Part shown: positions 32,535 through 48,585 of the stretch, in pieces
Layout of the letters: each line of letters opens with the position of its first letter
Position numbering within the stretch: position 1 is the stretch's first letter
NCBI RefSeq assembly: GCF_000213805.1
Contig: NC_015556.1
Coordinates: forward strand, 4,045,001-4,109,000
Reading direction: 5' to 3'
Length of the DNA stretch: 64,000 bases
Source of the DNA: Pseudomonas fulva 12-X
GTDB taxonomy: Bacteria; Pseudomonadota; Gammaproteobacteria; Pseudomonadales; Pseudomonadaceae
Notes under the pieces: model-generated
Told to the model about the DNA's origin: nothing
Database searches by the model: none
The model's input: the letters and a program-made list of their open reading frames with translations, nothing else
Position numbers and translations under genes: made by a program

Positions 32535-34937
32535 TTATTTATCCTCAGGCAACGCCCAGGCCGTTACCGAATCGCCGATTTTGGTGCCGAACGAGCCATG
32601 CCCACCGGCCATTTGCACCACGTACTGCCTGCCGGTCTTTTCGGACACGTAGGTCATCGGTGTCGCTTGGCCGCCAGCCGGCAGACGGCCTTTCCACAGC
32701 TCCTTGCCGGTCTTCAGGTCATAGGCGCGCAGGTAGTAATCCAGCGTACCGCTCATAAAGGCCACCCCGCCGGCCGTGATGATCGGTCCGCCAAGCGCCG
32801 GCGTTCCGACCGGGAACGGCAGGCCCAGCGGCGCGCTGTCGCGACTGGTGCCGTTCTTGTGCATCCACACCTTCTTCATGGTGCGCAGATCGACGGCAGT
32901 CACGTAGCCCCAAGGCGGCGACTGGCACGGCAAGCCCAACACCGAGAGGAACGGCTGCAAACGCACCATATACGGTGCCCCAAGATTCGGTTGCAGGCCG
33001 GTTTCACCACCACCCATTTGCTCGTCAGGGTCGACTTCGCTGCGCTTGACCATCTGCGAGATGAACGCCAGGTAGTTGGGCGCGCCGAACAGCAATTGGC
33101 GATTCGGATCCACCGCCACCGATGGCCAGTTGAATACCCCGACGTTGCCCGGATAGATCAGCGAACCGCCCTGGGACGGCGGCGTGAAATCGCCCTCGTA
33201 GCGCAGCTTGCGGAACTGGATGCGGCACAGCATCTGGTCGATCGGCGTACCGCCCCACATGTCGCGCTCGCGCAGCGGCTCCTGCGGCGCGTAGCTCAGC
33301 GCCGATGTCGGCTGAGTGGCGGCGGTGGTGTCGCCGTAGTCGGTACCCTGAGGCACTGGCATCTCGTTGACTGGCACGATGGGTTCGCCGGTACGGCGGT
33401 CGAGCACATACAGATCGCCGCGCTTGGTCGGCTGGATAAGCGCGGGTACCTTGCCCTGCGGGCCGTCGATATCCACCAGGGTCGGTTGCGAGGGTAGGTC
33501 ACGGTCCCAGAGATCGTGGTGCACGGTCTTGAATTCCCAACGCACCTTGCCGGTTGCAAGGTCCAGCGCCAGTACCGTGTCGGTGAAACGCTCAGCCAGT
33601 TCATCACGCGGGATCGACCACTGATCCGGCGTCTGGTTGCCAGTGGGGATATACACCAGGCCCAGCGCTTCGTCGGCCGTAGGGATCGTCCAGGAATTGG
33701 GCGTGCTGCGCACATAGGTTTCGCCCGGCGCTAGCGGTTCGGTGGCATCCGGCTTGCCCGGATCGAAATTCCACACCAGTTCACCGGTCTTCACGTCATA
33801 GGCGCGAATCACGCCGCCGGGTGAATCCACCGAGCCGTTATCGGTTATCGAACCGCCCTGAATCACCAGCTTGCTGGTCACCACAGGTGGCGAGGTGGGC
33901 AGGTAGACACCGAGCGCGCCCTCACCCAGACCAGCCTTGAGATCGACCGTGCCGGCATCGCCGAAGTCTTCGCACGGTTGGCCGTCATTCACATCCAGGG
34001 CGATCAGGGTGGCGTCGTTGGTCGGCAGGAACAGACGCTTCTCACACCGCGCAGCCGGCTGATCAGGCTGCTCGACCGCATTGGCAGTCGCCCCCGCAGC
34101 CGCACCATCGTGATAAGCCAGGCCACGGCAGGTCATATGCTGGTAGTACCCAGCGTCCCGGTTGATGCTCGGATCAAACCGCCAGCGCACCTCGCCGGTG
34201 TCCCCATCCAGCGCAATCGCCACGCTGTGCGGCGTGCAGATAAACAGGGTATTGCCGACCTTCAGCGGAGTGACCTGATTGGTCAGCTCATGGGGATCGC
34301 CCTCCCCCGGCAAATCTCCAGTATGAAACTCCCAGGCCTTTTCCAGCTTGCCGGCATTCTCGGGAGTAATCAGATCGGCCGTCGAATACCGATCACTGTG
34401 CCTGGAGCCACCATAGGCCGGCCACTCACTCGGCGAGCGCTGCGCAACGTCACTAGCCGCCTCACCCTGCATCTGCGCATCGCTGAACTCACCATTGATG
34501 GAGTGGTAATCCTGGGTCAGCGAATAACCGGCCATCGCAGCACCAGCCAAAAGCCCTACGCCCAAAACGCCGGTGGCGCCGTCACGCCAGACGCCATTAC
34601 GCCCGACATGCCGATTGACGAAGGGCAGGAACAGCCAAAGACCGAGAATGCACCAGAGGTCGATGCGCGGCGCCAATTGCCACCAGTCGAGGCGAACTTC
34701 GTATAGGGCCCAGGCGAGGGTGCCTAGAAGGAGGAGTCCGTAGAGTGTTATGGCGGAGCGGCGACCGGTAAGCAGCAAGCCGCCCACTATCAACAGCCCC
34801 AAACCAGCTATGAGGTAATACCAGGAGCCCCCCAAGCTCTTCAGGTAGCCCCCGCCAGAAGCCATGACTGCGCCCAGCAGCAAAACCGACAAAGCGGTAA
34901 GACTGACCCAAAACGGGCGACGGTATTCAATACTCAT
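32535..34937 (-). CDS. gcd: Membrane-bound PQQ-dependent glucose dehydrogenase
   Basis: The 800-residue protein has five N-terminal membrane helices (about residues 10-140) and a periplasmic eight-bladed PQQ propeller. Typical blocks are SEWPAYGGSRHSDRYS, GEVRWRFDP, DLWDRDLPSQPTLVDI, VYIPTGNQTPDQW and PWGYVTAVDLRTMKKVW. It oxidises glucose (and other aldoses, including some pentoses) to the lactone in the periplasm and passes electrons to ubiquinone. The ATG at 34937 is chosen because AGGGGAG lies just upstream; the frame extends to 34961. It ends the core block before the glycan island. It could feed sugar acids to the aldonate locus at 10353-17698, but that link is inference. Confidence 0.95.
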   Translation of the reverse strand: MSIEYRRPFWVSLTALSVLLLGAVMASGGGYLKSLGGSWYYLIAGLGLLIVGGLLLTGRRSAITLYGLLLLGTLAWALYEVRLDWWQLAPRIDLWCILGLWLFLPFVNRHVGRNGVWRDGATGVLGVGLLAGAAMAGYSLTQDYHSINGEFSDAQMQGEAASDVAQRSPSEWPAYGGSRHSDRYSTADLITPENAGKLEKAWEFHTGDLPGEGDPHELTNQVTPLKVGNTLFICTPHSVAIALDGDTGEVRWRFDPSINRDAGYYQHMTCRGLAYHDGAAAGATANAVEQPDQPAARCEKRLFLPTNDATLIALDVNDGQPCEDFGDAGTVDLKAGLGEGALGVYLPTSPPVVTSKLVIQGGSITDNGSVDSPGGVIRAYDVKTGELVWNFDPGKPDATEPLAPGETYVRSTPNSWTIPTADEALGLVYIPTGNQTPDQWSIPRDELAERFTDTVLALDLATGKVRWEFKTVHHDLWDRDLPSQPTLVDIDGPQGKVPALIQPTKRGDLYVLDRRTGEPIVPVNEMPVPQGTDYGDTTAATQPTSALSYAPQEPLRERDMWGGTPIDQMLCRIQFRKLRYEGDFTPPSQGGSLIYPGNVGVFNWPSVAVDPNRQLLFGAPNYLAFISQMVKRSEVDPDEQMGGGETGLQPNLGAPYMVRLQPFLSVLGLPCQSPPWGYVTAVDLRTMKKVWMHKNGTSRDSAPLGLPFPVGTPALGGPIITAGGVAFMSGTLDYYLRAYDLKTGKELWKGRLPAGGQATPMTYVSEKTGRQYVVQMAGGHGSFGTKIGDSVTAWALPEDK

Positions 34938-35274: not shown

Positions 35275-36585
35275 GTGAGCGAATTCCTCAGCACCTTGCG
35301 CGATCGGGTAACCTCGGGCACAGCCATCGTTGGTATCTACGGCCTGGGCTATGTAGGATTGCCACTAGCGTTACGCTTTTCTGAAGTAGGAATCAAGGTT
35401 ATAGGCTTTGACGTCGATCAAACTAAGGTCGACACCCTTCTGGCTGGGAAAAGCTATATAGAAAGACTGACGCCTGACCGGATAAAAGAAGCCCTCAAAC
35501 ATGGATTCGACGCAACCGTCGATTTCTCCAGAACTACTGAGGCTGACGCACTTATAATTTGCGTGCCCACACCACTTAATAGTCACCGAGAGCCCGATCT
35601 AAGCTATGTCATAAAGACGGTAGAGGCGATACTTCCTCACTTCCGAAAAGGTCAATTGCTTTCTTTAGAAAGTACTACTTGGCCCGGAACGACTGACGAA
35701 GAACTGGCACCCAGGCTCTTGGCAAGCGGTTTCATTCCTGGCGAAAATTGCGCACTGGTGTTCTCACCAGAGCGTGAAGATCCAGGAAACCCGCACTATG
35801 GCACTCAAGACATCCCCAAGATAATAGGGGGAATGAGTACAAGCTGCATTGAGATCGGCCAAGCGCTCTATCAGCACGCTATTCGGACGTTAGTTCCCGT
35901 GAGCAATACCCGCACCGCTGAAATGACCAAACTGCTGGAAAATATTCATAGAGCAGTGAATATTGGGCTGGTCAATGAAATGAAGATCGTGGCTGATAAG
36001 ATGAGCATCGATATACACGAAGTCATCCGTGCGGCGGCCACTAAGCCCTTTGGCTTCACACCTTATTATCCAGGCCCAGGTCTTGGTGGGCACTGCATTC
36101 CCATTGATCCCTTTTACCTTACTTGGAAGGCAAAGGAATATGGAATTAACACAAGATTTATCGAGCTTGCAGGTGAAATCAATCACTACATGCCACGATG
36201 GGTAGTACAAAAGGTAGCAGATGCCCTCAATGATCATGGCAAATCAGTTAAAGGCAGCCGTATCCTGATCTTAGGACTCGCATACAAGAAAAATATCGAC
36301 GACAGTCGTGAGTCTCCGGCCGTTGAAATCATGGAACTGCTACAGGGAAAAGGAGCATTAATCGAATATTGTGATCCACATGTGCCGAACTTTCCAAAAA
36401 AGCGCGACCACCATTTTGATCTTAACTCAGTAACACTGGATGCCGAGCGCATTGTCAGCTACGACTGTATTGTTCTAGCCACCGATCATGATGCCTTTGA
36501 TTATCCCCTGCTGCAGAGTCATGCCAGACTTCTAATCGACACCCGGGGTAGGCTGACGGGGGCTGCAAATGTCATCCCAGCCTGA
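35275..36585 (+). CDS. Nucleotide-sugar dehydrogenase (WbpA-like, UDP-N-acetylglucosamine 6-dehydrogenase type)
   Basis: The 436-residue protein has an N-terminal Rossmann motif ([20 protein letters not shown]), TPLN in the substrate region, the [17 protein letters not shown] helix and the catalytic cysteine in [20 protein letters not shown]. The sequence is closer to WbpA and Vi-antigen-type UDP-HexNAc dehydrogenases than to UDP-glucose dehydrogenase. It makes a uronic-acid nucleotide sugar with two NAD. The GTG start at 35275 gives the usual length. It heads a plus-strand glycan operon, and the next gene overlaps its end by 17 bases. Codon use is noticeably AT-richer than in the core genes, suggesting transfer. 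Confidence 0.88.
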
Positions 36586-37741
36586 GACACATACTCGCAA
36601 GCCAAAAATTCTGATCGTTACCCGCAATCTACCACCACTAGTGGGCGGTATGGAGCGGCTGAATTGGCATATGGCTGATGAGCTCAGCAAGCAGGCTAGT
36701 GTTCGCGTGGTTGGCCCCGCCGGTGCTGCAGCACTGAAACCCGAGACGGTAACCTTGGACGAGGTACCACTCAACCCCCTGCCGCTGTTCCTGCTGCTGA
36801 GTTTTCTCAAGGGATTATGGACTGCCCTACGCTGGAAACCCGATGTTATTCTTGCCGGCAGCGGACTGACGGCTCCGACTGCCAGGCTGTTGAGCAAGTT
36901 GTGTGGCGCTCGCTCGGCAGCCTACCTGCATGGCTTCGACATCACAGTCAATCACGGCACGTATCGCAGGCTCTGGCGACCGACCTTCAAGAAGCTGGAT
37001 CGGGTCATCGTCAACAGCACACCCACGCAAGCATTGGCTATCGCTGCCGGTGTCAGCCAAAACAGCATCAGCATTGTCCATCCAGGTGTGAGCCTGCCAG
37101 AAGTGTCACAGCCGGCAGAAAGCATCGCTGCGTTTAAAGAAAAGTACGGGCTAACCGGCAAAAAAATCCTGCTGTCCGTGGGGCGCCTGACCACTCGCAA
37201 AGGCCTGCGCGAATTCGTAGAGCTGGCCCTGCCCGCCATCGTCCAGGCCGAACCTGATGCCATGCTGCTGGTGATTGGAGAAGCCCCAAAGAACTCCCTG
37301 GGCGCAGGCATCCAAAGCGTGGAAAGCATTCAGGAACAAGCTGAAAAGTCAGCCGTTATTGGGCATATCAGATTCCTTGGGGTTATAACCGAGAGCCTGC
37401 TGGCGACTGCATACGAAGCCGCCAATGTGCATGTATTCCCAGTACGTCACATTCCAGATGACCCGGAAGGCTTTGGCATGGTGGCCATTGAGGCTGCGGC
37501 ACACGGGCTACCTACAGTGGCCTTTGCCACGGGAGGAGTGGTTGATGCGGTTGCCGAGGGGCAGTCCGGACATCTTGTTGAGTCAGAAGACTATGCGAAG
37601 CTGGCTCAGGCAGCACTGCAGATTCTTACCAGTGGCAAGACAGCAGAGCACACCAACACAACAACCCTTTTTGCTCAAGAGTTTGCATGGTCATATTTTG
37701 GCCAACGTATAGCTACCGCTTTAATGGCTGACTCAAAATGA
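36569..37741 (+). CDS. Glycosyltransferase family 4 (GT-B fold)
   Basis: The 390-residue protein has an N-terminal acceptor domain starting [20 protein letters not shown] and a C-terminal donor domain with [20 protein letters not shown] and the EX7E-type motif in [20 protein letters not shown], the GT4 hallmark. It should transfer a sugar from a nucleotide donor to a lipid-linked or glycan acceptor at the inner face of the cytoplasmic membrane. The start overlaps the dehydrogenase gene by 17 bases and the end overlaps the next gene (ATGA), so the operon is tightly packed. Donor and acceptor are unknown; a uronic-acid sugar from the previous gene is one option. Confidence 0.88.
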
Positions 37742-38694
37742 CCACGTCCCAACCTTCCCCATCTGAGCTGATCTGTATCACAGCTACAGCTCCCGGAGAC
37801 TTGGCGACAGTTACCGTGACCTTCAACCCCTCCCTGGCAGAGCTTCAAGCGCAATTGCACGTCTTACCCGCACGCTGCATCAAGGTCATTGTGGACAACG
37901 CATCCAAGCCGGATATCTGGGAAGAAGTTGCAGCTCTCGCCGGCAAGTTTCAAAACATCCATCTGATACGAAGTGAAACCAATCTTGGTCTTGCAGCCGC
38001 CCTCAACTACGGTGTTGATTGGTTGGCCACATTGACACCCACTCCCCAATTCGTGCTCTTGCTCGATCAGGACAGCGAGCCGAAGCCAGGCAGCATTGCA
38101 ACGCTGCTTGCTGGATTCGCTCAGTTGCGGGCCAAAGGGCACAAGGTGGGTTGCGTGGGACCGTTGCTGGCCGACCCAGACACCGGCCTTACGCACGGTT
38201 TTCACCAAAGCACCCGCTGGCGCTGGACACGGGCCTACCCACTTGCAGGTACTGCCACGCCCGTACCGTGCGCCAACCTCAACGGAAGCGGCACGCTGGT
38301 ACCACTGGCCCTATTTCAGCAGCTAGGCGGACTCGATGAGGCCTTATTCATCGACCATGTGGACACTGAATGGGCATTCCGCGTCATTGCTCATGGCTAC
38401 AGCCTATGGGGCATCCCGGGCGCGGTGTTCGCGCACAGTATGGGCCAGGCCAGCGTGCGCTTCTGGCTGCTGGGATGGCGAGTGTGGCCAGTACGCTCGC
38501 CACACCGGCATTACTATCTATACCGCAACGCGGCCATGCTGATGAAACGCCCCTACGTGCCCGTGGTGTGGAAAACCTGGGCCGCGATAAAGCTACTGTT
38601 CACCACCATCGTCATGGCGATATCAGGACCGTCACGCTGGCAGCAAATCAAAAACATGTGGCACGGATTACGACAAGGACTTGGCAAAAGATGA
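37738..38694 (+). CDS. Glycosyltransferase family 2 (rhamnosyltransferase-like)
   Basis: The 318-residue protein has the GT-A nucleotide-binding region (KVIVDNASKPDIWEE), NLGLAAALNYGVDWL and the metal-site LLDQDSEPKPG. NLNGSGTLVPLALFQQLGGL and the acidic block FIDHVDTEWAFR follow, as in WbbL/RfbN-type rhamnosyltransferases. It probably adds one sugar during assembly of a lipid-linked oligosaccharide. The start overlaps the GT4 stop by 4 bases and its own stop overlaps the methyltransferase start (ATGA). The donor sugar cannot be fixed; no rhamnose biosynthesis genes are in the window. Confidence 0.88.
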   Translation: MTTSQPSPSELICITATAPGDLATVTVTFNPSLAELQAQLHVLPARCIKVIVDNASKPDIWEEVAALAGKFQNIHLIRSETNLGLAAALNYGVDWLATLTPTPQFVLLLDQDSEPKPGSIATLLAGFAQLRAKGHKVGCVGPLLADPDTGLTHGFHQSTRWRWTRAYPLAGTATPVPCANLNGSGTLVPLALFQQLGGLDEALFIDHVDTEWAFRVIAHGYSLWGIPGAVFAHSMGQASVRFWLLGWRVWPVRSPHRHYYLYRNAAMLMKRPYVPVVWKTWAAIKLLFTTIVMAISGPSRWQQIKNMWHGLRQGLGKR

Positions 38695-39734
38695 ACATTG
38701 CTCAGCAAAACCAATGGTCACGCGGCCAACTGGAATCCGTTGCAAACTGCCCTGCCTGCAGTAGCGAGAATCGTGCTGTAGCCAACTTCACACGTCGCGA
38801 CAACGAAGGTGCTATGCCCGACCTATGGCGCATGGTGCAGTGCGTCGATTGCCAGTCCATCTGGCTTGACCCGCGTCCGGATGCGCAATCGTTGCCGCGC
38901 GCCTATGACGATTACTACACACACAACACCGAGGCCGACGATGTGCCGCAGAACGGCGGCAGCGGTCTAGCGTGGAGGCTGATCAACGGCTACCTCAACC
39001 GGCGCTTTGGCATGCACCGCCAACCTGAATCTGGATGGGGGTATGCCATTTTCTCGCTCATTGAGCCTTGGCGGCTCAAGCTCGATTACTACGGCAGGCA
39101 CCTGACATACAACCGCATCGGTAGGCCCGGATGTTTACTAGACATCGGCTGCGGCAATGGTGCTTTTCTGGATCGTGCCAAGACCATGGGATGGCGGGTT
39201 CACGGCTGCGAGATCGATCCCAAAGCCGTTGCCGCCTGCCGCAGCATTGGCCTTGACGTGATCGAAGGCGATTCCTTTGCGCCGCAACTGGTCGAACAAT
39301 CGTTCGACGTCATTACTATGAGCCATGTGATTGAGCATGTGCATGACCAGCCGGCCCTGCTGCAGCGCGCTCATGACCTACTTCGTCCTGGCGGCTGGCT
39401 CTGGTTGGCAGTGCCCAACCCTCAGAGCATTGGGCTTTTCGTAGCCAACTCAGCTTGGCATGCCTTGCACCCGCCTTATCACCTGTGTATTCCCAGCCGA
39501 GCTATCCTTACGAACTGGCTCAAGGAACAAGGTTTCTCCGAGATACAACTCTTAAGGCGTGGTGCGCATGTTCGTCAGATATGGCGAGTCTCCCAAGCCA
39601 TTGCTCAACGAGAAGTCATTGTCGCTCCATCGCCTGGCCGCTTGTTCGCTTGGCGCTTGCTCGCTGATGCCTTGGCAACAATCAGCCCGTACCGAGCTGA
39701 AGAAACAGTGCTATTAGCGCGAAAGCCGGATTGA
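38691..39734 (+). CDS. Class I SAM-dependent methyltransferase with N-terminal zinc ribbon
   Basis: The 347-residue protein begins with a zinc-ribbon-like pair of CxxC motifs (NCPACSSE near residue 19 and QCVDCQS near residue 50) and continues with a class I methyltransferase fold: motif I LLDIGCGNGAFLDRAK, then GCEIDPKAVAACRSIGLDVI and FDVITMSHVIEHVHDQP. Proteins of this type are common in O-antigen and capsule clusters, where they methylate a sugar or glycan end. The ATG at 38691 overlaps the previous stop, so the longer open frame from 38370 is discarded. A four-base gap separates it from the next glycosyltransferase. The acceptor is unknown; glycan O-methylation is inferred from context. 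Confidence 0.85.
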   Translation: MNIAQQNQWSRGQLESVANCPACSSENRAVANFTRRDNEGAMPDLWRMVQCVDCQSIWLDPRPDAQSLPRAYDDYYTHNTEADDVPQNGGSGLAWRLINGYLNRRFGMHRQPESGWGYAIFSLIEPWRLKLDYYGRHLTYNRIGRPGCLLDIGCGNGAFLDRAKTMGWRVHGCEIDPKAVAACRSIGLDVIEGDSFAPQLVEQSFDVITMSHVIEHVHDQPALLQRAHDLLRPGGWLWLAVPNPQSIGLFVANSAWHALHPPYHLCIPSRAILTNWLKEQGFSEIQLLRRGAHVRQIWRVSQAIAQREVIVAPSPGRLFAWRLLADALATISPYRAEETVLLARKPD

Positions 39735-39738
39735 TTCG

Positions 39739-40668
39739 ATGAAGGCAAATACCAACACACCAATCACCGGTCTTGTTCTTCACTTTCGCACACCAGAAAA
39801 AACACTGGCCTGTCTACGATCCCTTCAGCGGGAAGGTATCCGCAAGGTCATCGTCGTAGACAACTCAGAAGACGATGGTCAATCCATCACAGCCATGCAG
39901 GGCGATCTGGATGCGCTGCACAACACCGGGTTTGATACCGAGGTATTGAACCCTAGGCGCAACCTCGGCTTTGCAGCAGGCGTCAATATGGGGCTTGCAC
40001 ATATTGCCGCCAGCCAAGCCAGCCACGTACTGCTAATCAACTCAGATGCACAACTGACCCCCAGCGCACTTCGCCACATGCGCCGTGCGCTGCAAACCGC
40101 CGCCATCGTTGCGCCGCGCATTGCGCAAGGCAATGAAGCGCATACATCACCCTTCGCCTACTACGACCGCTTACTAGGTCTGATCACACGCAAGCCCTAC
40201 GTCATGCCATTGCGCCATGCCAGCGGCTGCTGCATCTTGGTTCATGTCGATCAAGCGCATGTACCGCTGCTTGACCAAGATTTCTTCTTCTATGGTGAGG
40301 ACGTCATGCTTGGCTTTACTACAGAGCAAAGCAACATCGCCAAACAGGAATGCCCGCAAGCCAGGGCATCGCACGCCACCTCAACCAGCGCCAGGAACGG
40401 CTCGCTGTTCTACGAATACCACATGAACCGCGCGCATTGGCTGCTTGCCAAAAAGCTGGCTCGCAACCACCTGGAACTGTGCGCGTTCATCGCAGGCCGG
40501 TGCATGATGCTACCTTTACGCGCCCTGATACGGAGTTTGCGCTTTCGGTCACTAGTCGCCTGGAAGGGCTTAATTATGGCGACCTTCGATGTATTACGTG
40601 GAAGATGCCGAAGTCTTACGCCACCGGCGATTACAACAAACCCGCACCACCAACTCACTCCCCAATAA
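39739..40668 (+). CDS. Glycosyltransferase family 2
   Basis: The 309-residue protein has GT-A features: GLVLHFRTPEKTLACLRSLQ, VIVVDNSEDDG, NLGFAAGVNMGLAHIA, the acidic motif LLINSDAQL and a C-terminal FFFYGEDVMLGF acceptor/catalytic block. A hydrophobic C-terminal segment may attach it to the membrane. It ends the plus-strand run of glycan genes. Its last 75 bases overlap the convergent flippase gene, an arrangement that usually results from recombination of cassettes. Donor and acceptor are unknown. Confidence 0.85.
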   Translation: MKANTNTPITGLVLHFRTPEKTLACLRSLQREGIRKVIVVDNSEDDGQSITAMQGDLDALHNTGFDTEVLNPRRNLGFAAGVNMGLAHIAASQASHVLLINSDAQLTPSALRHMRRALQTAAIVAPRIAQGNEAHTSPFAYYDRLLGLITRKPYVMPLRHASGCCILVHVDQAHVPLLDQDFFFYGEDVMLGFTTEQSNIAKQECPQARASHATSTSARNGSLFYEYHMNRAHWLLAKKLARNHLELCAFIAGRCMMLPLRALIRSLRFRSLVAWKGLIMATFDVLRGRCRSLTPPAITTNPHHQLTPQ

Positions 40669-41859
40669 CGCCATTGCCCATTCGGAACACACCAGCGCCA
40701 AGGCCATACCATATATGCCTATATACGCCGTCAGCAGCATGGCCGCCACGCTCAACACCACCAAACCAGCCACCTCAAACCCTGCTCGCATCCAGGGCTT
40801 GCCCAGCGCCATCAGCGCATTGCCAGCCGCAATGCGCAGGGCCATACCGGGAACGGCAAGGCACAACCAGCGGATCACCTCATCTACCCCTTCGTACTTT
40901 CCCCCCAGCAGCCAGGCGAATAACGGCGCACAGCACCAAAGCACCACCGCCAGCCCCATACCGTAAAGAGCTGTAGCACCAAAAATCCAACGTAAAAGGC
41001 GCGCGGTACGTTGCGGTTGCTCATGCCCTTCGCGGAACAAGCGAGGCAATGCCGATAGCATCAAGGCAATCACAGGCAGTGTGACGGCCCCTACCACACG
41101 TGCAGCCGCCGCGTATAAGCCCGCAGCAGGCAAGGGCAGCAATCTGATAGCCAGCGTCTTGTCTAGCTCTGCCGGCCCAATCGCCGAGATATTGAGCGCG
41201 GCATAACTGGCCGCCTCACGCAGCTCCTGCCCACTCGGCCGGCGCCACACACGTGGGTGCGGCCAGCGGAGCGGGAGGCACGCCAGCATCACCAGCAAAC
41301 CAATCGCAGTCGCCATACAGTAACCATAGCCATAGACCGCCAATGGATCTGCCGGTGCCAGCCAGCCCACAGCTACGGCCACCACCAGGCGCAGCGCCAA
41401 TGGTAGTGTCTGCAACAATTGGGAGCGCGCCGTATGTTCAGCCGCCAGAACTTCCACCACCGCCAAGGCCGACAGCGGCATCAGCAGCATCTCTGCCACA
41501 CCAAGCGCCAACAACACGCCCCAACCCACGCCACTGGCATGCAGTAGCTGGGTACAAATCAACATAAAGACGATCAGCAACGCGCCGCCGCACAGCAAGG
41601 TGGTCGGCAAAGCATACGGCAGTATTTGTGCCCGTCTGACTGGGTCTTTAGACATCGCGCCCAACAGCACCAGATGCATACCGAAGGTAGACAGCGTGCC
41701 CAGCAGCACCCCTAACGCAGCGACACCGACAAAGCCGCCAAACTGCTCGGGACCAAGCATCCGCGCCACCAACAACAAGGTGCCGGCCTGCACGATCAGG
41801 CGCAGCCCCAGTACCACACTGGTGCGTAGAGCGGCTAAAGCGATCGGACCTCTAAACAT
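40594..41859 (-). CDS. Wzx-type oligosaccharide flippase (MOP superfamily)
   Basis: The 421-residue protein has about 12 membrane helices and the start GLRLIVQAGTLLLVARMLGP followed by EQFGGFVGVAALGVLLG, the pattern of polysaccharide flippases that move undecaprenyl-linked oligosaccharides across the cytoplasmic membrane. The ATG at 41859 starts two bases after the stop of the broken upstream gene. It runs opposite to the glycosyltransferases and overlaps the last one by 75 bases at its 3' end. No Wzy polymerase or O-antigen ligase is visible nearby, so the product may be a single repeat unit, or these are encoded elsewhere. Confidence 0.85.
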   Translation of the reverse strand: MFRGPIALAALRTSVVLGLRLIVQAGTLLLVARMLGPEQFGGFVGVAALGVLLGTLSTFGMHLVLLGAMSKDPVRRAQILPYALPTTLLCGGALLIVFMLICTQLLHASGVGWGVLLALGVAEMLLMPLSALAVVEVLAAEHTARSQLLQTLPLALRLVVAVAVGWLAPADPLAVYGYGYCMATAIGLLVMLACLPLRWPHPRVWRRPSGQELREAASYAALNISAIGPAELDKTLAIRLLPLPAAGLYAAAARVVGAVTLPVIALMLSALPRLFREGHEQPQRTARLLRWIFGATALYGMGLAVVLWCCAPLFAWLLGGKYEGVDEVIRWLCLAVPGMALRIAAGNALMALGKPWMRAGFEVAGLVVLSVAAMLLTAYIGIYGMALALVCSEWAMALLGSELVVRVCCNRRWRKTSASST

Positions 41860-41861
41860 GG

Positions 41862-43229
41862 TCAGTGTTCTTTTACGAAGTAGCCACCCGTTTTAGGTGC
41901 GCTCTGAAATTCTATGCCCCCTTGCTCGCACAGTTTTTTTAGCCGGCGCCCAATGACTCGTTGAGTCACCTGCAGATAACGGACAGCTATTGCGCTTGCG
42001 TTAACGGGTTGATTGGCCGTAATGAATTCCAGCAACTCTTTTACACCGACATTTACACCGAGACTCACGCTCTCGTTAGCCCCTGCAATAGATACCCCTT
42101 GCTCGGATACCCCGTGAATATGCGCCTCTGCATAGCGAAACGTCACCCACAGGCCACCCGGCTCGATCTCCCACTGCGGCAGCGGGTGATTATCCTGCCT
42201 ACAGGCCTCAATGATGCGCTCGATGCCCCGGCCCCAGGACTTGATGAGGCCGGCCCGAGAAAACGTATCAGCGATATCCGGACTAAACGGGCACGAAGCA
42301 TATTTGGCAATATGCTTGCCCAGCGTCCAGTTATCCGACAGCTGGCCTGGGTTCCAGATCATGAGTTTGGCAGGATAAGCGCTGATCTGCACCGCCACGG
42401 CACGGGCGTAATCCTTGTGAACTACCGCATTCAGCATGGCTTTGCGCAAGGCCGCCATGGGCACTGGGTAACGCATTTTTTGGTACAGGTCGTCGTAGCT
42501 GATCAAAGCCAAGGTATTTGAGCTTGAGCACCTCAATAGCCGTGTCCGCTTGGGTGAATAGGTTGCCGGTGATTTCATCCTGATGGAGCAGACTAGCATT
42601 GCTGCTGCCAATAGCCCCCTATTTTAATCTGCGCGGAGGAAACGAAATGTTCGGGGTCGTTGTGAAACAGCAGGGCCGCAGCGCGCTCCAGCCTGTCGCC
42701 GAGCATGAGTCGCAGGTGCTCCAGCAATAGTTCGGTGCTCTCCTGCAGGATCGTTTCGGGTAAGCGCTGGCTGTGAATAGCTTGCTGGCCGAAGCGCCTG
42801 ATAATGCATTGATCCAACTCGCTGGATACAAGGTATTGCAGGGGTACCGCATCCCAGTGCAAGCCTTGTTTTTTCAGCAAAAATCGATCGAAGATCGCGC
42901 CTTTGAGCTCCTGCTTGGTACTGCCGCTACGGTAGTGATGCTCACCCTTGTAACTGACTGGATAGGGGTAGGCTGGCACCTGGATTTGCAGGGTCTCCAA
43001 GCGCACCGTGCAACTGCAGATTCACGTCGATCACGATAGCCTGTGCGTCGCGCACTTCGTTCGGAATGTCTTCCAGCATTTTTTGCACGTTCAGGATACC
43101 TACAACCTGACCTTGATCATCGTAACCCACTAGCATCGCACCGCCTTCTGCATTGTTGAAGGCACTTATCCATTTGAGCAGATCGTCTTTCCACTGGCGC
43201 TTGAGCTCTATACGCTAGGATTCTTGCAT
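41862..43229 (-). pseudogene. AlbA_2-domain ATP-binding/transcriptional regulator family gene, broken by a stop and two frameshifts
   Basis: The pieces read in order on the minus strand. ATG at 43229 gives MQES followed by a TAG, then RIELKRQWKDDLLKWISAFN and EGGAMLVGYDDQGQVVG (AlbA_2 domain). After a frameshift near 42980 comes AYPYPVSYKGEHHYRSGSTK. After another near 42600 comes ALRKAMLNAVVHKDYARAV, WNPGQLSDNW and SWGRGIERIIEACRQ, the divergent HATPase C-terminal part, with a winged helix near the end. Intact members are about 450-480 residues and often occur in defence or mobile regions. The three lesions make it non-functional, unless sequencing errors are responsible. Confidence 0.85.
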
Positions 43230-43364
43230 GGCGTAAGTCCTCTGCGATCGTAGGATGGGATCGGGGCGCGCAGACTAGCCAAGCGTAATCCGACAGTTTG
43301 CCCCCGCGGATTACGCCTGAGGCTAATCCAGGCTACGGTCTGGCTTTCTGCTCGTATGCCGAGC

Positions 43365-44216
43365 TCAGCCCTTGTCCTTGTACATCAAGGCCGTGATCTG
43401 CTCGGAGATCAGCCCCATCAAGAACACCATCACCGCACCGCTATAAAGCAAGGCACTCATATTGGTAAAGCGACCCTCCGTGCTGAGCGTATAACCGTAC
43501 CAACCGGAGGCCAGCATGAACATGGTCAACGCCACGGGCGCAAATATCTTTAACGGTGAAAACAACGTGCCGATCTTGAAAATAATCAACAAAAAACGTG
43601 AGCCATCGTGCAACAAGCGGATATGGCTTTTGCCGATACGCCTGGCCGCATGAATCGGCACATAGGCAACAGAGTAACCGGCACGAAAAAAGGCCATGGT
43701 ACTGGTAGTGGGGTAGGAAAACCCGTTGGGTAGCAGATAGAGAAACTCGCGGAATTTATTTGCCCGTACAGCGCGAAAACCCGACGTTAGGTCTTCAACT
43801 CGGTGCCCCGTCATCCAACTTGCAAGGCGGTTGTACAGGCCATTGGCAAACCCGCGCCCAATGCTGGCTTGCGAGCCTTTCTGACGCGCACCCACTACCA
43901 TGTCGTGTCCCTGCTCAGTCAACACCAGCATACGGGGGATATCCGCTGGATCATGCTGGCCGTCGGCGTCCATAAACACAATTACCTCGCCCACGGCGGC
44001 ACGAGCCCCGCTCTTGATTGCAGCACCATTACCCTTGCTGTAGGGGTGATGCACAACCCTGGCTCCCGCTGCGGCAGCAACCTCTGCCGTGCTGTCAGTG
44101 GAGCCGTCATTGACCACAATCACCTCGGCATCCGGGTAAAACTGGCGAATGCCAGCCACAGTTGCACCAATGGCTAACGCCTCATTTTTGGCGGGGAGGA
44201 CGATGCTTATATTCAT
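43365..44216 (-). CDS. Glycosyltransferase family 2, polyprenyl-phosphate sugar synthase type, with C-terminal membrane helices
   Basis: The 283-residue protein has a DPM1/GtrB-like GT-A domain: ISIVLPAKNEALAIGATVAG, VIVVNDGSTDST, YSKGNGAAIKSGARAA, the metal-binding DxD in VFMDADGQHDP and DLTSGFRAVRANKFREFL. Two C-terminal membrane helices follow (IFAPVALTMFMLASGWYGY; SGAVMVFLMGLISEQI). Such enzymes move a sugar from a nucleotide donor to undecaprenyl or dolichyl phosphate on the cytoplasmic face. The start overlaps the stop of the GT-C gene upstream (ATGA), so the two proteins are made together. The product would be a suitable donor for a GT-C enzyme. The sugar is unknown. Confidence 0.88.
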   Translation of the reverse strand: MNISIVLPAKNEALAIGATVAGIRQFYPDAEVIVVNDGSTDSTAEVAAAAGARVVHHPYSKGNGAAIKSGARAAVGEVIVFMDADGQHDPADIPRMLVLTEQGHDMVVGARQKGSQASIGRGFANGLYNRLASWMTGHRVEDLTSGFRAVRANKFREFLYLLPNGFSYPTTSTMAFFRAGYSVAYVPIHAARRIGKSHIRLLHDGSRFLLIIFKIGTLFSPLKIFAPVALTMFMLASGWYGYTLSTEGRFTNMSALLYSGAVMVFLMGLISEQITALMYKDKG

Positions 44217-46138
44217 GGCGCTTCCGTAGCAGGGTTCTCGGTTTTTATTGCCTCTTTCAAGGCGCTATCCAGATAGGCTATATCTCGCTCATAGGAAGTA
44301 CGCGAACGCTTCAGCTTGCGCGAATCCTGCTGTGCCAACACTTGGGTAGCTTGCTCAAGCAGGGCTAATGCCTCTTTGGGGTGTCCACCAGACGCCACTT
44401 CCGACACCATGGCTAAGGCTGCATCGGTTTCCTGGTAGAGACTCATCGCCAGGCTGTAGTATTCATATGCTTGGGCAGTATCACCAAGATGCAGGTAAAT
44501 CTGGGCACGCAGGTAAGCCACCAAGCGAATAAACAAGGGAAATTGATTGTAGACAATACTGCTATCCATCGCACCCAATAAATTCAAGGTATAGCGAACA
44601 TACTCTGGCGAGTTACTTTCCAGCACCGCCTCAACAATGGTGCGCAAGCCTTTCACAGTTTGCGCATCAAACTGCTGCACCTTGAGCCGCTCGCCAGCTT
44701 TAATAAAGTCCTGCTCTGAAGCCACTCCTACATATACCTTTTGCAGCAAGAGACGGACTGTTAGCAGTGAGCTATTGGACAACCGCTCACTTTCCGCAAG
44801 CAAATACTCGTTAGCTTTCTCGTACTGCCCATTACTCATGTAATAGGCTGCCATACTGTTGATGGCGCGCGGCGATTCAGTGGCAGCCTGCATCCAGTAC
44901 AGCTCCAGCTTTTCGTTATTACTCCAAAGCGATGCGCGCAGCCAAGTCATGGAGGCCAGAACACCAAGAATAGCAACCGCAACGACTGGCAGCAGTTTGA
45001 AGCGGCCACTCAAAATGACACAGTAATAGGCCAACGGTAGAAATAGAAACAGGGCTGCCAAATGATTGCGGTGCTCAAAATACAACTCCAGCCCAACCAC
45101 TGTGGACTCCATCAAGTGGGCCGCAAAGAAAAACAGAATAGCCAGACTGATCAGAGGTGTTTTTTTACGCAACAAGAGGGCAAATACAACAAGAGCAAAC
45201 AGAAAAACAATGGCAAAAAAAGTACTAACCGGCTCAAACAACCCTTTGGAAATAACGTAACCATCCTGATACAGGCCATTGCCTTCAATTCTGGGCACAA
45301 ACAGATGAAGCAGGTACTCACAGACAATTCGGGCTTCGGTTAGCAGACGCTCAACCTGATTAAAGTTGCGACTCGGCCACGGGTTATCGGCAAAGTCAAT
45401 GTAGCGGGCCAATAGAACGGCGATAGCAACGGAGGGAAGCCAGAGAAATACAGCCCGCCACTGCCAGACAGGCTTGCCATCCTTCGGCAGACAGAACTCA
45501 ATAACCAGAACAAGCAACGGCAGCAAAGCACCATTTTCCTTACTGAAAGTAGCCAGCAGCGTGCCTGCACCTATCGCCAACGTCATCAGCACATAGGCAC
45601 GCCCAGTGCGTATAGCCATCTGCAAGCGCGCATACAGGTAAAGCAAAATTCCCACCAGGCAGAACAGCGTGGCCAGTTGCGCCATACGTTGCACCACATA
45701 CAGCGTGGTAGACACCATATAGGGGTGCAATACCCAAAGCGCACAGGCCAGAACGGCAATCCATTGTGCCTGCCGCTCACTGACTGACTTGAAATTGCGC
45801 ATCAGCAATAGTGTTGCCCAACACAGCAACAAGCCGCACAGTATATGAATCAGCAAATTGGTGTATTTGAACCAAGGCGCGTAACTTGGCCAGGTATTGT
45901 CATCCAGCAAAAAGCTGGCTAGCGATAAAGGGCGCCCTGTCGGACCGGACCAGCCACTAAAAACAAAAGCCCGAAAGGTTTCTAAGTTGCTTACGCCACC
46001 GAGATCTCCCATTGTCTCGAGGTTGGGCTGATCATCAAATAAAAAACCACCACTTAGACCAGGCCAATAGACAAAGCAGGCACTTAGCAACACGACAGAC
46101 AGCAACAAAAATGGCTGCACCACAAATATATTCTTCAT
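44213..46138 (-). CDS. GT-C-fold membrane glycosyltransferase with TPR-like C-terminus, candidate pilin O-glycosyltransferase
   Basis: The protein of about 641 residues has some 10-12 membrane helices in the first 400 residues and a soluble helical region after about 420 with TPR-like repeats (AINSMAAYYMSNGQYEKANE; YLRAQIYLHLGDTAQAYEYY). The first loop after helix 1 has FLFDDQPNL, an acidic pair (D35, D36) where GT-C enzymes, including the TMTC O-mannosyltransferases, carry the catalytic or metal site. The ATG at 46138 is preferred; a TTG further up lies inside the pilA terminator. The gene lies 58 bases after pilA in the same direction and overlaps the polyprenyl-phosphate sugar synthase gene. 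Glycosylation of PilA outside the cytoplasmic membrane is inferred from context; no Wzy_C (TfpO/PilO) motif was recognised. Confidence 0.75.
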   Translation of the reverse strand: MKNIFVVQPFLLLSVVLLSACFVYWPGLSGGFLFDDQPNLETMGDLGGVSNLETFRAFVFSGWSGPTGRPLSLASFLLDDNTWPSYAPWFKYTNLLIHILCGLLLCWATLLLMRNFKSVSERQAQWIAVLACALWVLHPYMVSTTLYVVQRMAQLATLFCLVGILLYLYARLQMAIRTGRAYVLMTLAIGAGTLLATFSKENGALLPLLVLVIEFCLPKDGKPVWQWRAVFLWLPSVAIAVLLARYIDFADNPWPSRNFNQVERLLTEARIVCEYLLHLFVPRIEGNGLYQDGYVISKGLFEPVSTFFAIVFLFALVVFALLLRKKTPLISLAILFFFAAHLMESTVVGLELYFEHRNHLAALFLFLPLAYYCVILSGRFKLLPVVAVAILGVLASMTWLRASLWSNNEKLELYWMQAATESPRAINSMAAYYMSNGQYEKANEYLLAESERLSNSSLLTVRLLLQKVYVGVASEQDFIKAGERLKVQQFDAQTVKGLRTIVEAVLESNSPEYVRYTLNLLGAMDSSIVYNQFPLFIRLVAYLRAQIYLHLGDTAQAYEYYSLAMSLYQETDAALAMVSEVASGGHPKEALALLEQATQVLAQQDSRKLKRSRTSYERDIAYLDSALKEAIKTENPATEAP

Positions 46139-46148
46139 AAAAATAAAA

Positions 46149-46176
46149 AGGCGATGCTTATAAATAAGCATCGCCT
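46149..46176 (-). terminator. Rho-independent terminator between pilA and the glycosyltransferase gene
   Basis: A 12-bp perfect stem (AGGCGATGCTTA with TAAGCATCGCCT, TAAA loop) is followed on the minus strand by a long T-rich run. It lies 20 bases after the pilA stop and would separate high pilA transcription from lower read-through into the glycosyltransferase pair. Confidence 0.92.
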
Positions 46177-46195
46177 CCCTCTGAACCCTACGATA

Positions 46196-46624
46196 TTATC
46201 GGCAGTTCGAAGGAATGAATTTTGTATCGATCGGAGTGCTGGCGCCTGGCTTGCATTTCCAGCGAATACCACCAGCATTAGTAGTTGGACTCAGCGCCAA
46301 GGTAGCGCCACTGGATACCTTATCATTAAAAGCGATGGTGATAAGGCCATTCGCAACAGTAACGCTAGTAACAGCATTGCCTGTGATGGACGTATTGGTA
46401 GCCAGCCCAGCGGAGGCATTGTTCGTAGGATAACGATTGTTGCTGGACAAGAACTCGGATACGGAAGCCTTGGCACCACCAGCGAGGCTCAGGCCTTCGG
46501 AAACGTGAGAACGCTTGGTGTAATCCTGGTAAGCAGGCAGCGCAATGGCAGCCAAAATACCGATGATCGCAACAACGATCATCAATTCAATCAGGGTAAA
46601 ACCCTTTTGCATTTGAGCTTTCAT
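46196..46624 (-). CDS. pilA: Type IV pilus major pilin
   Basis: The 142-residue type IVa prepilin has a short basic leader ending in glycine (MKAQMQKG), cleaved and methylated by PilD before F9. The mature start [20 protein letters not shown] has the essential Glu5 and the hydrophobic assembly helix. The C-terminal disulfide loop is formed by C124 and C141 (WKCKPGAST to SNCR). The protein polymerises into the pilus driven by PilB and PilC, encoded divergently. A sigma-54 promoter precedes it and a strong terminator follows. Serine and threonine are abundant in the variable region ([15 protein letters not shown]), so O-glycosylation sites are available; which one is used is unknown. Confidence 0.96.
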
Positions 46625-46645
46625 GTAACTCTCCAGTCATTAAGT

Positions 46646-46665
46646 GTCAGGCAGACAAGCCTGAC
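46646..46665 (-). other. Stem-loop at the predicted 5' end of pilA mRNA
   Basis: A perfect 7-bp inverted repeat GTCAGGC-N6-GCCTGAC. The sigma-54 promoter predicts a start near 46663, so the hairpin would form the very 5' end of the transcript and could protect it from decay. The role is inference. Confidence 0.6.
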
Positions 46666-46672
46666 GATGACA

Positions 46673-46690
46673 TAGCAGAAGCCGTGCCAA
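46673..46690 (-). promoter_or_regulatory. Sigma-54 (RpoN) promoter of pilA
   Basis: The minus strand reads TTGGCACGGCTTCTGCTA. GG at -24 and GC at -12 are separated by exactly 10 bases, matching the RpoN consensus. pilA transcription in Pseudomonas is known to depend on RpoN and PilSR. Confidence 0.92.
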
Positions 46691-46884
46691 GTTTTGAGCG
46701 CCGGCCTCTGGCCACAATTACTGCCAACGCCTTCACAAAATCACCGATTCCGCCGAAGTAACGACCATTACACCAAGTACCTTGATGCGCACCTTGTGAC
46801 ACTTTCCGTCACCTCGGAATTGGCAATTTGGCAGCCCCTAGCATCTACGCTATAACGCACCCATCTACTGATGCCGAGGTACTC

Positions 46885-48585
46885 ATGAGCGAGAACATTC
46901 CCCTTTCCGGCCTGGCCAAGCAGGTGGTGCTGGCTGAGCTGCTGGACGAGAAGGCCGCTCAGCAAGCGCAGGTGCAAGCCAAACGCAACAAGCTCTCCCT
47001 TGTTCATTATCTGGCTCAGAACAAGCTGGTAAAAAGCCGCGCGCTGGCGGAGCTGACGGCGGATCAGTTCGGCATCGCTTATTTCGACCTCAGCGCCCTA
47101 GATAAGGAGAGCCAACCAAAAGATCTAGTTAGTGAGAAGCTGGTGCGTCAGCACCGCGCCCTGCCCTTGTGGCGCCGCGGCAACAAGCTCTTTATCGGCA
47201 TCTCCGACCCCTCCAACCACCAGGTGGTTACCGATATTCAGTTCAGCACCGGCCTTTCTACGGAGGCGCTGCTGGTCGAAGACGACAAGCTAGGCGACGC
47301 CATCGAGAAGTTCTTCGATACTGGCCATACCGGCCTGGAAGACATGGGCGACGTTGATCTCGATGGCCTGGAAACCGAAAGCGTCGACGACGACAAGAAG
47401 CCAGAGGGTGGTCAGGATGCCGATGACGCTCCGGTAGTGCGCTTCGTCAACAAGATGCTGCTCGATGCCATCAAAGGCGGCTCCTCCGATCTGCACTTCG
47501 AGCCTTACGAGCGTACCTATCGCGTGCGCTTTCGTACAGACGGAATTTTACATGAGACGGCACGCCCGCCGATCCAGTTGGCACCGCGTATTTCTGCGCG
47601 TTTGAAGGTAATGGCAGGCCTTGATATCTCCGAGCGGCGTAAGCCACAGGACGGCCGTATCAAGATGAAGATTTCCAAGAGCAAATCCATCGACTTTCGC
47701 GTTAACACCCTGCCGACGCTGTGGGGCGAAAAGATCGTGATGCGGATTCTCGATTCTTCCAGCGCGCAGATGGGCATCGACGCCCTAGGTTACGAGGAAG
47801 ACCAGAAGGAGCTGTACCTCAACGCCCTTAAACAGCCACAGGGCATGATTTTGGTGACCGGCCCGACCGGCTCGGGCAAGACGGTATCTCTGTATACCGG
47901 CCTCAATATTCTCAACACCCCGGACGTGAATATTTCCACGGCTGAAGACCCTGTGGAAATCAACCTAGAAGGCATCAACCAGGTCAACGTCAACCCCAAA
48001 CAGGGGATGGACTTTACCCAGGCACTGCGCGCCTTTCTGCGCCAGGACCCGGACATCATCATGGTCGGTGAGATTCGTGATCTGGACACCGCTTCCATCG
48101 CCATCAAGGCCGCGCAGACAGGCCATATGGTGATGTCGACCCTGCATACCAATAGCGCTGCGGAGACGCTAACTCGCCTACGTAATATGGGTGTGCCCTC
48201 GTTCAACATTGCCACCTCGGTCAACCTGATCATTGCTCAACGTCTGGCGCGCAAGCTGTGTTCGTCCTGCAAAAAGGAAGTCGATATCCCGCGCGAAGCA
48301 TTGCTGGAGGAAGGCTTTCCGGAGGACAAGATAGGTAGCTTCAAGATCTACGGCCCGGTTGGCTGCGAAAACTGCAAAGGCGGCTATAAAGGTCGTGTCG
48401 GTATTTATGAAGTGGTTAAAAACACGCCAAGCCTGCAGCGGATTATCATGGAGGAAGGCAACTCCATCGATATTGCCGCGCAAATGCGCAAAGACGGCTT
48501 TAACGACCTGCGCACCTCGGCCCTTGTGAAGGCCATGCAAGGCGTGACCAGCCTTGAGGAAGTCAACCGCGTGACCAAGGATTAA
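46885..48585 (+). CDS. pilB: Type IV pilus assembly ATPase
   Basis: The 566-residue protein aligns with P. aeruginosa PilB along its length. It has the N-terminal GspE/MshEN domain (about residues 1-150), then Walker A GPTGSGKTVSLYTG, Asp box and Walker B in RQDPDIIMVGEIRD, the His box TGHMVMSTLHTNSAAETLTR and the tetracysteine zinc motif (CSSCKK and CENCKGG). It powers pilus extension from the cytoplasmic face. The ATG at 46885 (MSENIPLSGLAKQ) is preferred to the TTG at 46828 by homology. It is divergent from pilA and begins the pilB-pilC-pilD block, with pilC starting two bases after its stop. Confidence 0.97.
   Translation: MSENIPLSGLAKQVVLAELLDEKAAQQAQVQAKRNKLSLVHYLAQNKLVKSRALAELTADQFGIAYFDLSALDKESQPKDLVSEKLVRQHRALPLWRRGNKLFIGISDPSNHQVVTDIQFSTGLSTEALLVEDDKLGDAIEKFFDTGHTGLEDMGDVDLDGLETESVDDDKKPEGGQDADDAPVVRFVNKMLLDAIKGGSSDLHFEPYERTYRVRFRTDGILHETARPPIQLAPRISARLKVMAGLDISERRKPQDGRIKMKISKSKSIDFRVNTLPTLWGEKIVMRILDSSSAQMGIDALGYEEDQKELYLNALKQPQGMILVTGPTGSGKTVSLYTGLNILNTPDVNISTAEDPVEINLEGINQVNVNPKQGMDFTQALRAFLRQDPDIIMVGEIRDLDTASIAIKAAQTGHMVMSTLHTNSAAETLTRLRNMGVPSFNIATSVNLIIAQRLARKLCSSCKKEVDIPREALLEEGFPEDKIGSFKIYGPVGCENCKGGYKGRVGIYEVVKNTPSLQRIIMEEGNSIDIAAQMRKDGFNDLRTSALVKAMQGVTSLEEVNRVTKD

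Follow-up and report, generated by a model that had tools for sequence, protein, structure and literature searches.

The stretch of DNA considered here, hereafter the window, comprises 64,000 nucleotides of Pseudomonas fulva 12-X (contig NC_015556.1, positions 4,045,001 to 4,109,000) and contains a short cassette that begins with the pilin gene pilA. On the minus strand, pilA is followed by a gene for a GT-C membrane protein with a C-terminal tetratricopeptide repeat (TPR) domain and then by a gene for a GT2 synthase of the kind that makes polyprenyl-phosphate sugars, the latter two overlapping by ATGA (Table 1). The pilBCD genes lie on the opposite strand, divergent to pilA, from 46828. PilA has a prepilin leader, MKAQMQKG, before FTLIE, and a cysteine pair at its C terminus. 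An earlier note on this DNA had described pilA, the membrane protein with its acidic pair and TPR-like tail, the DPM1/GtrB-like enzyme and the ATGA overlap, and all of these are confirmed by the open reading frames (ORFs), Pfam and AlphaFold. The G+C content of pilA and the GT-C gene is 49.4%, compared with 60.9% for the window; a promoter scan gave no sigma-70-like match in 43000-46900. Among relatives with a name, Pseudomonas argentinensis matches the locus best, with 96% identity in the GT-C protein.

Table 1. Features of the pilA cassette and its surroundings in the window
Feature	Coordinates	Strand	Details
pilA, type IVa major pilin, presumed acceptor	46196-46624	-	142 amino acids; PF00114 E 6.5e-24, PF07963 E 4.1e-10
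Rho-independent terminator-like hairpin between pilA and GT-C gene	46145-46180	-	stem of 16 bp followed by a U-run and an ATG
GT-C glycosyltransferase with C-terminal TPR domain	44213-46138	-	likely 641 amino acids; presumed periplasmic transferase onto PilA
GT-C gene, longest ORF	44213-46171	-	652 amino acids
GT2 polyprenyl-phosphate-sugar synthase (DPM1/ArnC-like)	43365-44216	-	283 amino acids; PF00535; presumed donor maker
ATPase/helix-turn-helix (HTH) gene remnants	41862-43006		HATPase_c_4 PF13749 in 41862-42611; 42593-43006 without Pfam match
Wzx-like flippase, candidate third component	40594-41859	-	Polysacc_synt PF01943
Glycan island	35275-40668	+	UDP (uridine diphosphate)-sugar dehydrogenase, GT4, GT2, methyltransferase, GT2

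The spacer between pilA and the GT-C gene folds into a hairpin with a z score of -6.33, and none of 200 shuffled sequences was equally stable. A terminator-like hairpin lies 3′ of the pilin gene in 54 of 69 cassettes and in none of the 69 spacers after one plain base shuffle of each (the set consists of 55 cassettes from the class sample described below and 14 others, with loci L002 and L017 being one contig). TfpW, the group IV pilin arabinosyltransferase of Pseudomonas paraeruginosa PA7/Pa5196, is a GT-C enzyme, and the window has the layout of TfpW-type cassettes, in which a GT-C gene stands directly downstream of the major pilin gene with a terminator between them. The excerpted text of PMC11841053 describes such a terminator as common to Pseudomonas pilin-accessory cassettes. 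The hairpin also bears on the start of the GT-C protein. Because the ATG at 46171 falls within the hairpin, the next in-frame ATG (46138) lies beyond the U-run, and residues 1-12 of the 652-residue ORF have an AlphaFold predicted local distance difference test score (pLDDT) <50, the true length is probably 641 residues. Database relatives are found at 652 residues and also near 641.

The AlphaFold model of the GT-C protein has a confident GT-C core followed by the TPR tail. Pfam gave matches to TPR models and, weakly, to two families of helical repeats, and none to a glycosyltransferase family or, at E<=0.5, to the TMTC domain; a PDB sequence search with the single protein gave no match at E<=1. 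(For the 67 family members scanned, the Pfam matches considered are the 25 commonest of 66 families.) Plain Foldseek placed mostly TPR and other helical-repeat proteins on top, with PglB at rank 12, and a second structural comparison, which draws only on candidates supplied by Foldseek, ranked GT-C enzymes first. ArnT is not in the best 50 rows for the model, which is no evidence of a difference.

The earlier note had contrasted this architecture with that of TfpO and had not recognized it as a described type of pilin modification; the view that it differs from all known pilin modifiers is not supported. The Pseudomonas aeruginosa-group proteins P0142 and P0158 (639-646 residues), found by homology, also model as a GT-C core plus helical tail, and HHalign matches their family to the window family over 594 columns, nearly the full length (probability 100, E 9e-46, 17% identity). 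The P0158/P0142 family is probably that of TfpW (locus tag PSPA7_5160). Two other routes to TfpW were abandoned: an ALO-domain search of the genus lacked discrimination, with matches in 119 of 398 genomes, and the pilB-side regions of candidate genomes yielded no candidate.

The active site was examined in an alignment of 107 sequences of at least 590 residues, out of 121 hits, with the window protein and its close relatives included. D46, R80, W146, P150, Q161, R162, K211, L361, R368 and S433 are invariant, and D47 (106/107) and E212 (102/107) nearly so. Model and alignment place the acidic pair D46-D47 after helix 1 of the GT-C fold. Q161 directly precedes R162, and the position +2 from R162 is T, A, N or S in 106 of the 107, the aspartate of an RxD motif being absent. 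These residues bear on the idea that the GT-C/TPR protein is mainly a TfpY-like pilus-assembly factor in which glycosyltransferase activity has been lost or is secondary. According to the excerpts of PMC11841053, TfpY too is encoded beside pilA; it aids the assembly of pili, and the pilins that accompany it are unmodified. Nevertheless, the catalytic residues are invariant or nearly so in the family, and the donor synthase that goes with it is highly conserved, which together make such a role very improbable.

The GT2 protein combines a GT2 domain and a DXD motif with homology to solved members of the DPM1/GtrB/ArnC group: its best PDB relatives are ArnC (2.1e-15), dolichol monophosphate mannose synthase (8.8e-11) and sll0501 (1.4e-6), the last known as GtrB. 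The DXD aspartates, D83 and D85, are present in every one of the 64 sequences aligned, that of the window among them. The top NCBIfam model, AglJ, is matched at 112 bits, far below its cut-off of 325 and too weakly to name the sugar. A homologue search of the P. fulva 12-X genome gave no second strong homologue of this protein.

Homologues of the GT-C protein occur in 3/398 genomes of the genus sample, in 9/57 genomes of relatives, in 107/369 genomes and 85/272 genera of the class sample, and in 23/299 genomes of the phylum sample, 13 of them from other classes; P. fulva 12-X itself is counted in each sample. All three homologues in the genus sample sit between the pilB-adjacent pilin gene and a GT2 gene. 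The eight other matching relatives, which belong to other families of the order, have the GT-C gene at the pilA-pilB locus; among these, a contig end cuts two, the pilin is 1.1 kb off in one, and L023 is a second copy without a pilin.

Neighbouring genes were surveyed within the class in 80 regions, or clusters, which were picked down a score-ordered list and come from 74 of the 106 further genomes with a match; pilins were called by the pilin motif plus a hydrophobic helix. Where a contig end left too little DNA to assess, the cluster was excluded (15/80 upstream, 8/80 downstream). A pilin gene lies <=400 bp upstream of the GT-C cluster in 51 of the 65 assessable clusters and <=1.2 kb upstream in 54; among other ORFs of >=350 residues in the same regions, a pilin lies <=400 bp upstream in 4 of 260. 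A GT2 homologue is found <=1 kb downstream in 52/72. Where both sides could be assessed (58 clusters), a pilin and a GT2 are present in 36, a pilin alone in 12, a GT2 alone in six and neither in four. By family, 41 of the 51 covered have a cluster next to a pilin, 34 of them with a GT2 as well. A looser first count had accepted contig-end clusters if the neighbour was found, a bias in favour of a pilin-glycosylation cassette, and gave 55/69 (<=400 bp) and 58/69 (<=1.2 kb) for pilins, 54/74 for GT2 and 42/64 for both; it was replaced by the count on available DNA, which removes L034, L048, L084 and L089 upstream and L077 and L087 downstream.

The earlier note had proposed that the pair makes and uses a lipid-linked sugar for modification of PilA, and this is supported by the conserved order of pilin, GT-C and GT2 genes, the catalytic residues, the fold and several motifs of TMTC enzymes. 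No clustering of the GT-C protein with lipid A or teichoic-acid enzymes was seen, and most examined homologues lie beside pilins. Judged from sequence, structural models and analogy, the pair is in our opinion likely to be a pilin-glycosylation cassette, an assessment that the stricter recount left unchanged. By analogy with the Gtr/GT136 systems, as they appear in the excerpts of PMC11127046, a lipid-linked monosaccharide would be made by the GT2 and transferred outside the cytoplasm by the GT-C, and PilA is the likely acceptor because of the pilin link. At the cytoplasmic face, the GT2 would charge undecaprenyl phosphate with one sugar residue from a nucleotide donor, the residue being probably a hexose or N-acetylhexosamine, and the lipid-linked sugar would be flipped, possibly by the adjacent Wzx-like protein. 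The periplasmic GT-C, through a DD/RP/QR/KE/R active site, would then attach this one residue to Ser/Thr of PilA. Recognition of the partner pilin may fall to the TPR tail, the part that changes fastest, and the terminator after pilA may hold the enzymes low relative to the pilin.

The cassette also adjoins a polysaccharide island (UDP-sugar dehydrogenase, glycosyltransferases and the Wzx-like gene), and it is conceivable that the pair modifies another envelope glycan, such as lipopolysaccharide or exopolysaccharide, in the manner of GtrABC/GT136, with pilA adjacency a by-product of an exchange hot-spot. The pairing of a polyprenyl-phosphate-sugar synthase with a GT-C in three-component systems, reported in the parts of PMC11127046 consulted, is in keeping with such a role. 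We nevertheless consider it unlikely, given how widely across families the GT-C genes adjoin pilins, the terminator 3′ of the pilin in most cassettes, and the lack of a relative of the window flippase in the class-sample regions.

The flippase gene lies downstream of the GT2 on the same strand in the window and, at distances of ~340 bp and ~260 bp, in L001 and L004; the gap in the window is ~1 kb longer than that of L001, in the stretch with ATPase/HTH gene remnants. The gene is likewise downstream on the same strand, but diverged in sequence and without a Pfam match, in L002/L017, and broken in L018 (a Pseudomonas genome in which the cassette-adjacent flippase gene, L018:10234-11504, is split into two ORFs); in L003 it is on the opposite strand. 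A single-sequence search at E<1e-3 found a relative in 0/80 class-sample regions, several of which have unidentified multi-transmembrane genes downstream. The Wzx-like protein is thus a candidate for the flipping step in Pseudomonas and no fixed part of the cassette. That the flippase-containing island is separate from the cassette, as the earlier note had it, is doubtful: the short distances in L001 and L004 speak against separation, whereas the result for the class sample speaks for it.

Within the class sample, mean pairwise identity falls from the GT2 (57.8%, 51 proteins) to the GT-C core (34.3%) and the TPR tail (17.2%; 91 GT-C proteins), a gradient that fits a constant donor together with acceptor recognition by a changing tail, though weaker constraint on the tail could also account for it. 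There are two to four tandem GT-C genes in 18/80 class-sample clusters, and one possible scenario is that the GT-C builds short sugar chains on the pilin, with one enzyme or tandem GT-Cs elongating an oligosaccharide, comparable to the D-arabinofuranose homopolymers of TfpW. The probable TfpW family has the same architecture, and TfpW is reported to add arabinofuranose homopolymers in the excerpted PMC11841053. We rate this scenario as less likely than not, for the P. fulva 12-X genome has a single GT-C of the window family according to a homologue search, and the adjacent donor synthase is of the GT2 monosaccharide type. A broad class of pilin glycosylation, in which a conserved single-sugar synthase feeds one to several GT-Cs, the TPR tails read their own pilins and tandem GT-Cs modify different sites, seems to us an evenly balanced proposition. 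If it is true, such systems could rank among the commonest pilin modification systems, given that GT-C homologues are present in 107/369 sampled genomes of the class and in 13 sampled genomes outside it.

Several observations weigh against single-sugar pilin glycosylation as set out above. In the class sample, 11/65 clusters have no pilin <=1.2 kb upstream, 20/72 have no GT2 <=1 kb downstream, and 4/58 have neither. Ser/Thr residues are no more frequent in cassette pilins: their fraction is 0.233 (n=69), as against 0.254 (n=20) for the pilins of loci L129-L148, which have no large membrane-protein neighbour, a difference in the opposite direction (Mann-Whitney P 0.015); we take this content neither to help nor to exclude glycosylation. 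The flippase link is seen in Pseudomonas loci only, and GtrA (PF04138) has no match in the P. fulva 12-X genome.

The slot behind pilA differs among Pseudomonas strains. PilB is strongly matched in 225 genomes of the genus; the genus survey covered 7-8 kb pilB-side regions from 100 of them, and a window-type cassette was found in 0 of these 100. A Wzy_C-class gene occupies the slot in 16/24 other Pseudomonas loci with Pfam-scanned membrane proteins. DNA similarity to the window ends inside pilA at 46512-46521 in L149, L150, L152, L153, L154, L157, L162 and L165, and slightly further in, at 46476-46491, in L151, L173, L183 and L201. L149 and L150 have a PilB with 97% identity. Their similarity to the window returns at 34745 and 34724, within a pyrroloquinoline quinone (PQQ)-dehydrogenase gene, and their slot contains the end of a different pilin together with a gene of the Wzy_C class (522 residues in one and 546 in the other, the latter with PglL_A and Wzy_C_2 matches). 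The glycan island falls within the block that differs from these close kin. The block appears to be exchanged between strains, probably through recombination within the 5′ part of pilA, which is conserved. Conservation of the pilin N terminus would on its own preserve similarity to about the same point, so recombination there is our inference.

Other arrangements were seen in the same survey. Six of the 100 regions have a distant GT-C relative (L110, L112, L114, L117, L125 and L151). In the first five it is shorter (548-572 residues) and stands beside pilA, followed by a second multi-transmembrane gene; the three scanned (L110, L112 and L125) have TPR matches, and the second gene of L110 is Wzy_C. 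L151:2392-6290 has two distinct GT-C-like genes in tandem after pilA, one of the probable TfpW family and one with PMT_2. Sulfatase-fold membrane proteins (PF00884), which at a guess are possibly pilin phospho-form transferases, lie at or near pilA in L155:4464-6350, L167:4441-6363 and L180:4432-5847. A recurring three-gene block stands near pilB, at the pilin-accessory position, in L163:3414-5970, where two of the three genes are ATP-binding cassette (ABC) transporter parts; blocks similar in size and membrane segments only are present in L166, L169, L170, L178, L179, L186, L187, L198-L200, L203, L204 and L206-L208.

Pilin glycosylation lets Pseudomonas aeruginosa escape pilus-specific phages, according to the excerpts of PMC11841053. 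The position of the cassette beside pilins in so many families predicts glycosylated pili in many organisms, and the cassette may be a simple single-sugar system for the study of acceptor choice by GT-C enzymes. No description of a pilin-linked GT-C/TPR plus GT2 cassette was found in the titles, abstract openings and excerpts covered by a search of open-licence PMC literature, which is weak evidence of absence.

There are known systems to which the cassette can be compared. TfpO/PglL enzymes, O-oligosaccharyltransferases for pilins or other proteins, belong to the Wzy_C family and use undecaprenyl diphosphate-linked oligosaccharides as donor. Wzy_C-class genes take the same post-pilA slot in other Pseudomonas; however, there is no Wzy_C match in the window GT-C protein or in the P. 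fulva 12-X genome. With TfpW the window GT-C shares the position directly after pilA, and with the probable TfpW family the window protein shares the core-plus-helical-tail model and the DD, RP, KE and R motifs. The two families differ in that the probable TfpW family retains RxD (R154, F155 and D156 are invariant in 46 sequences), whereas the window family lacks the aspartate and has the invariant Q before R162. They differ also in donor supply, for the window synthase is a GT2 adjacent to the GT-C, whereas in PA7 the D-arabinofuranose (D-Araf) genes, PSPA7_6245-6251, are apart from pilA-tfpW-tfpX at PSPA7_5161-5159, as given in the excerpts of PMC12369383. ALO (PF04030) has no match in the P. 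fulva 12-X genome at E<=1e-5, other D-Araf genes not having been searched. The cassette is probably a widespread variant of the probable TfpW kind, one in which the donor synthase is supplied by the cassette itself. It is like the Gtr/GT136 systems of PMC11127046, as excerpted, in joining a polyprenyl-phosphate-sugar synthase to a GT-C transferase, and unlike them in being linked to a pilin rather than to O antigen and in the missing GtrA match.

The final parallel is with the eukaryotic GT-C O-mannosyltransferases TMTC1-4, for which motifs are taken from the excerpts of PMC7801869. Of these, M2 is matched by its RP end only, and the aspartate of M3, the RxD in EL2, is absent. The window protein nevertheless has the M1 DD in EL1 (D46-D47), the M4 KE in EL3 (K211-E212) and the M7 arginine in EL5 (R368), and, as in TMTC1-4, its GT-C core is followed by a C-terminal TPR domain. 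We suggest that the cassette offers a bacterial TPR-tailed GT-C for comparison with the eukaryotic TMTC enzymes.

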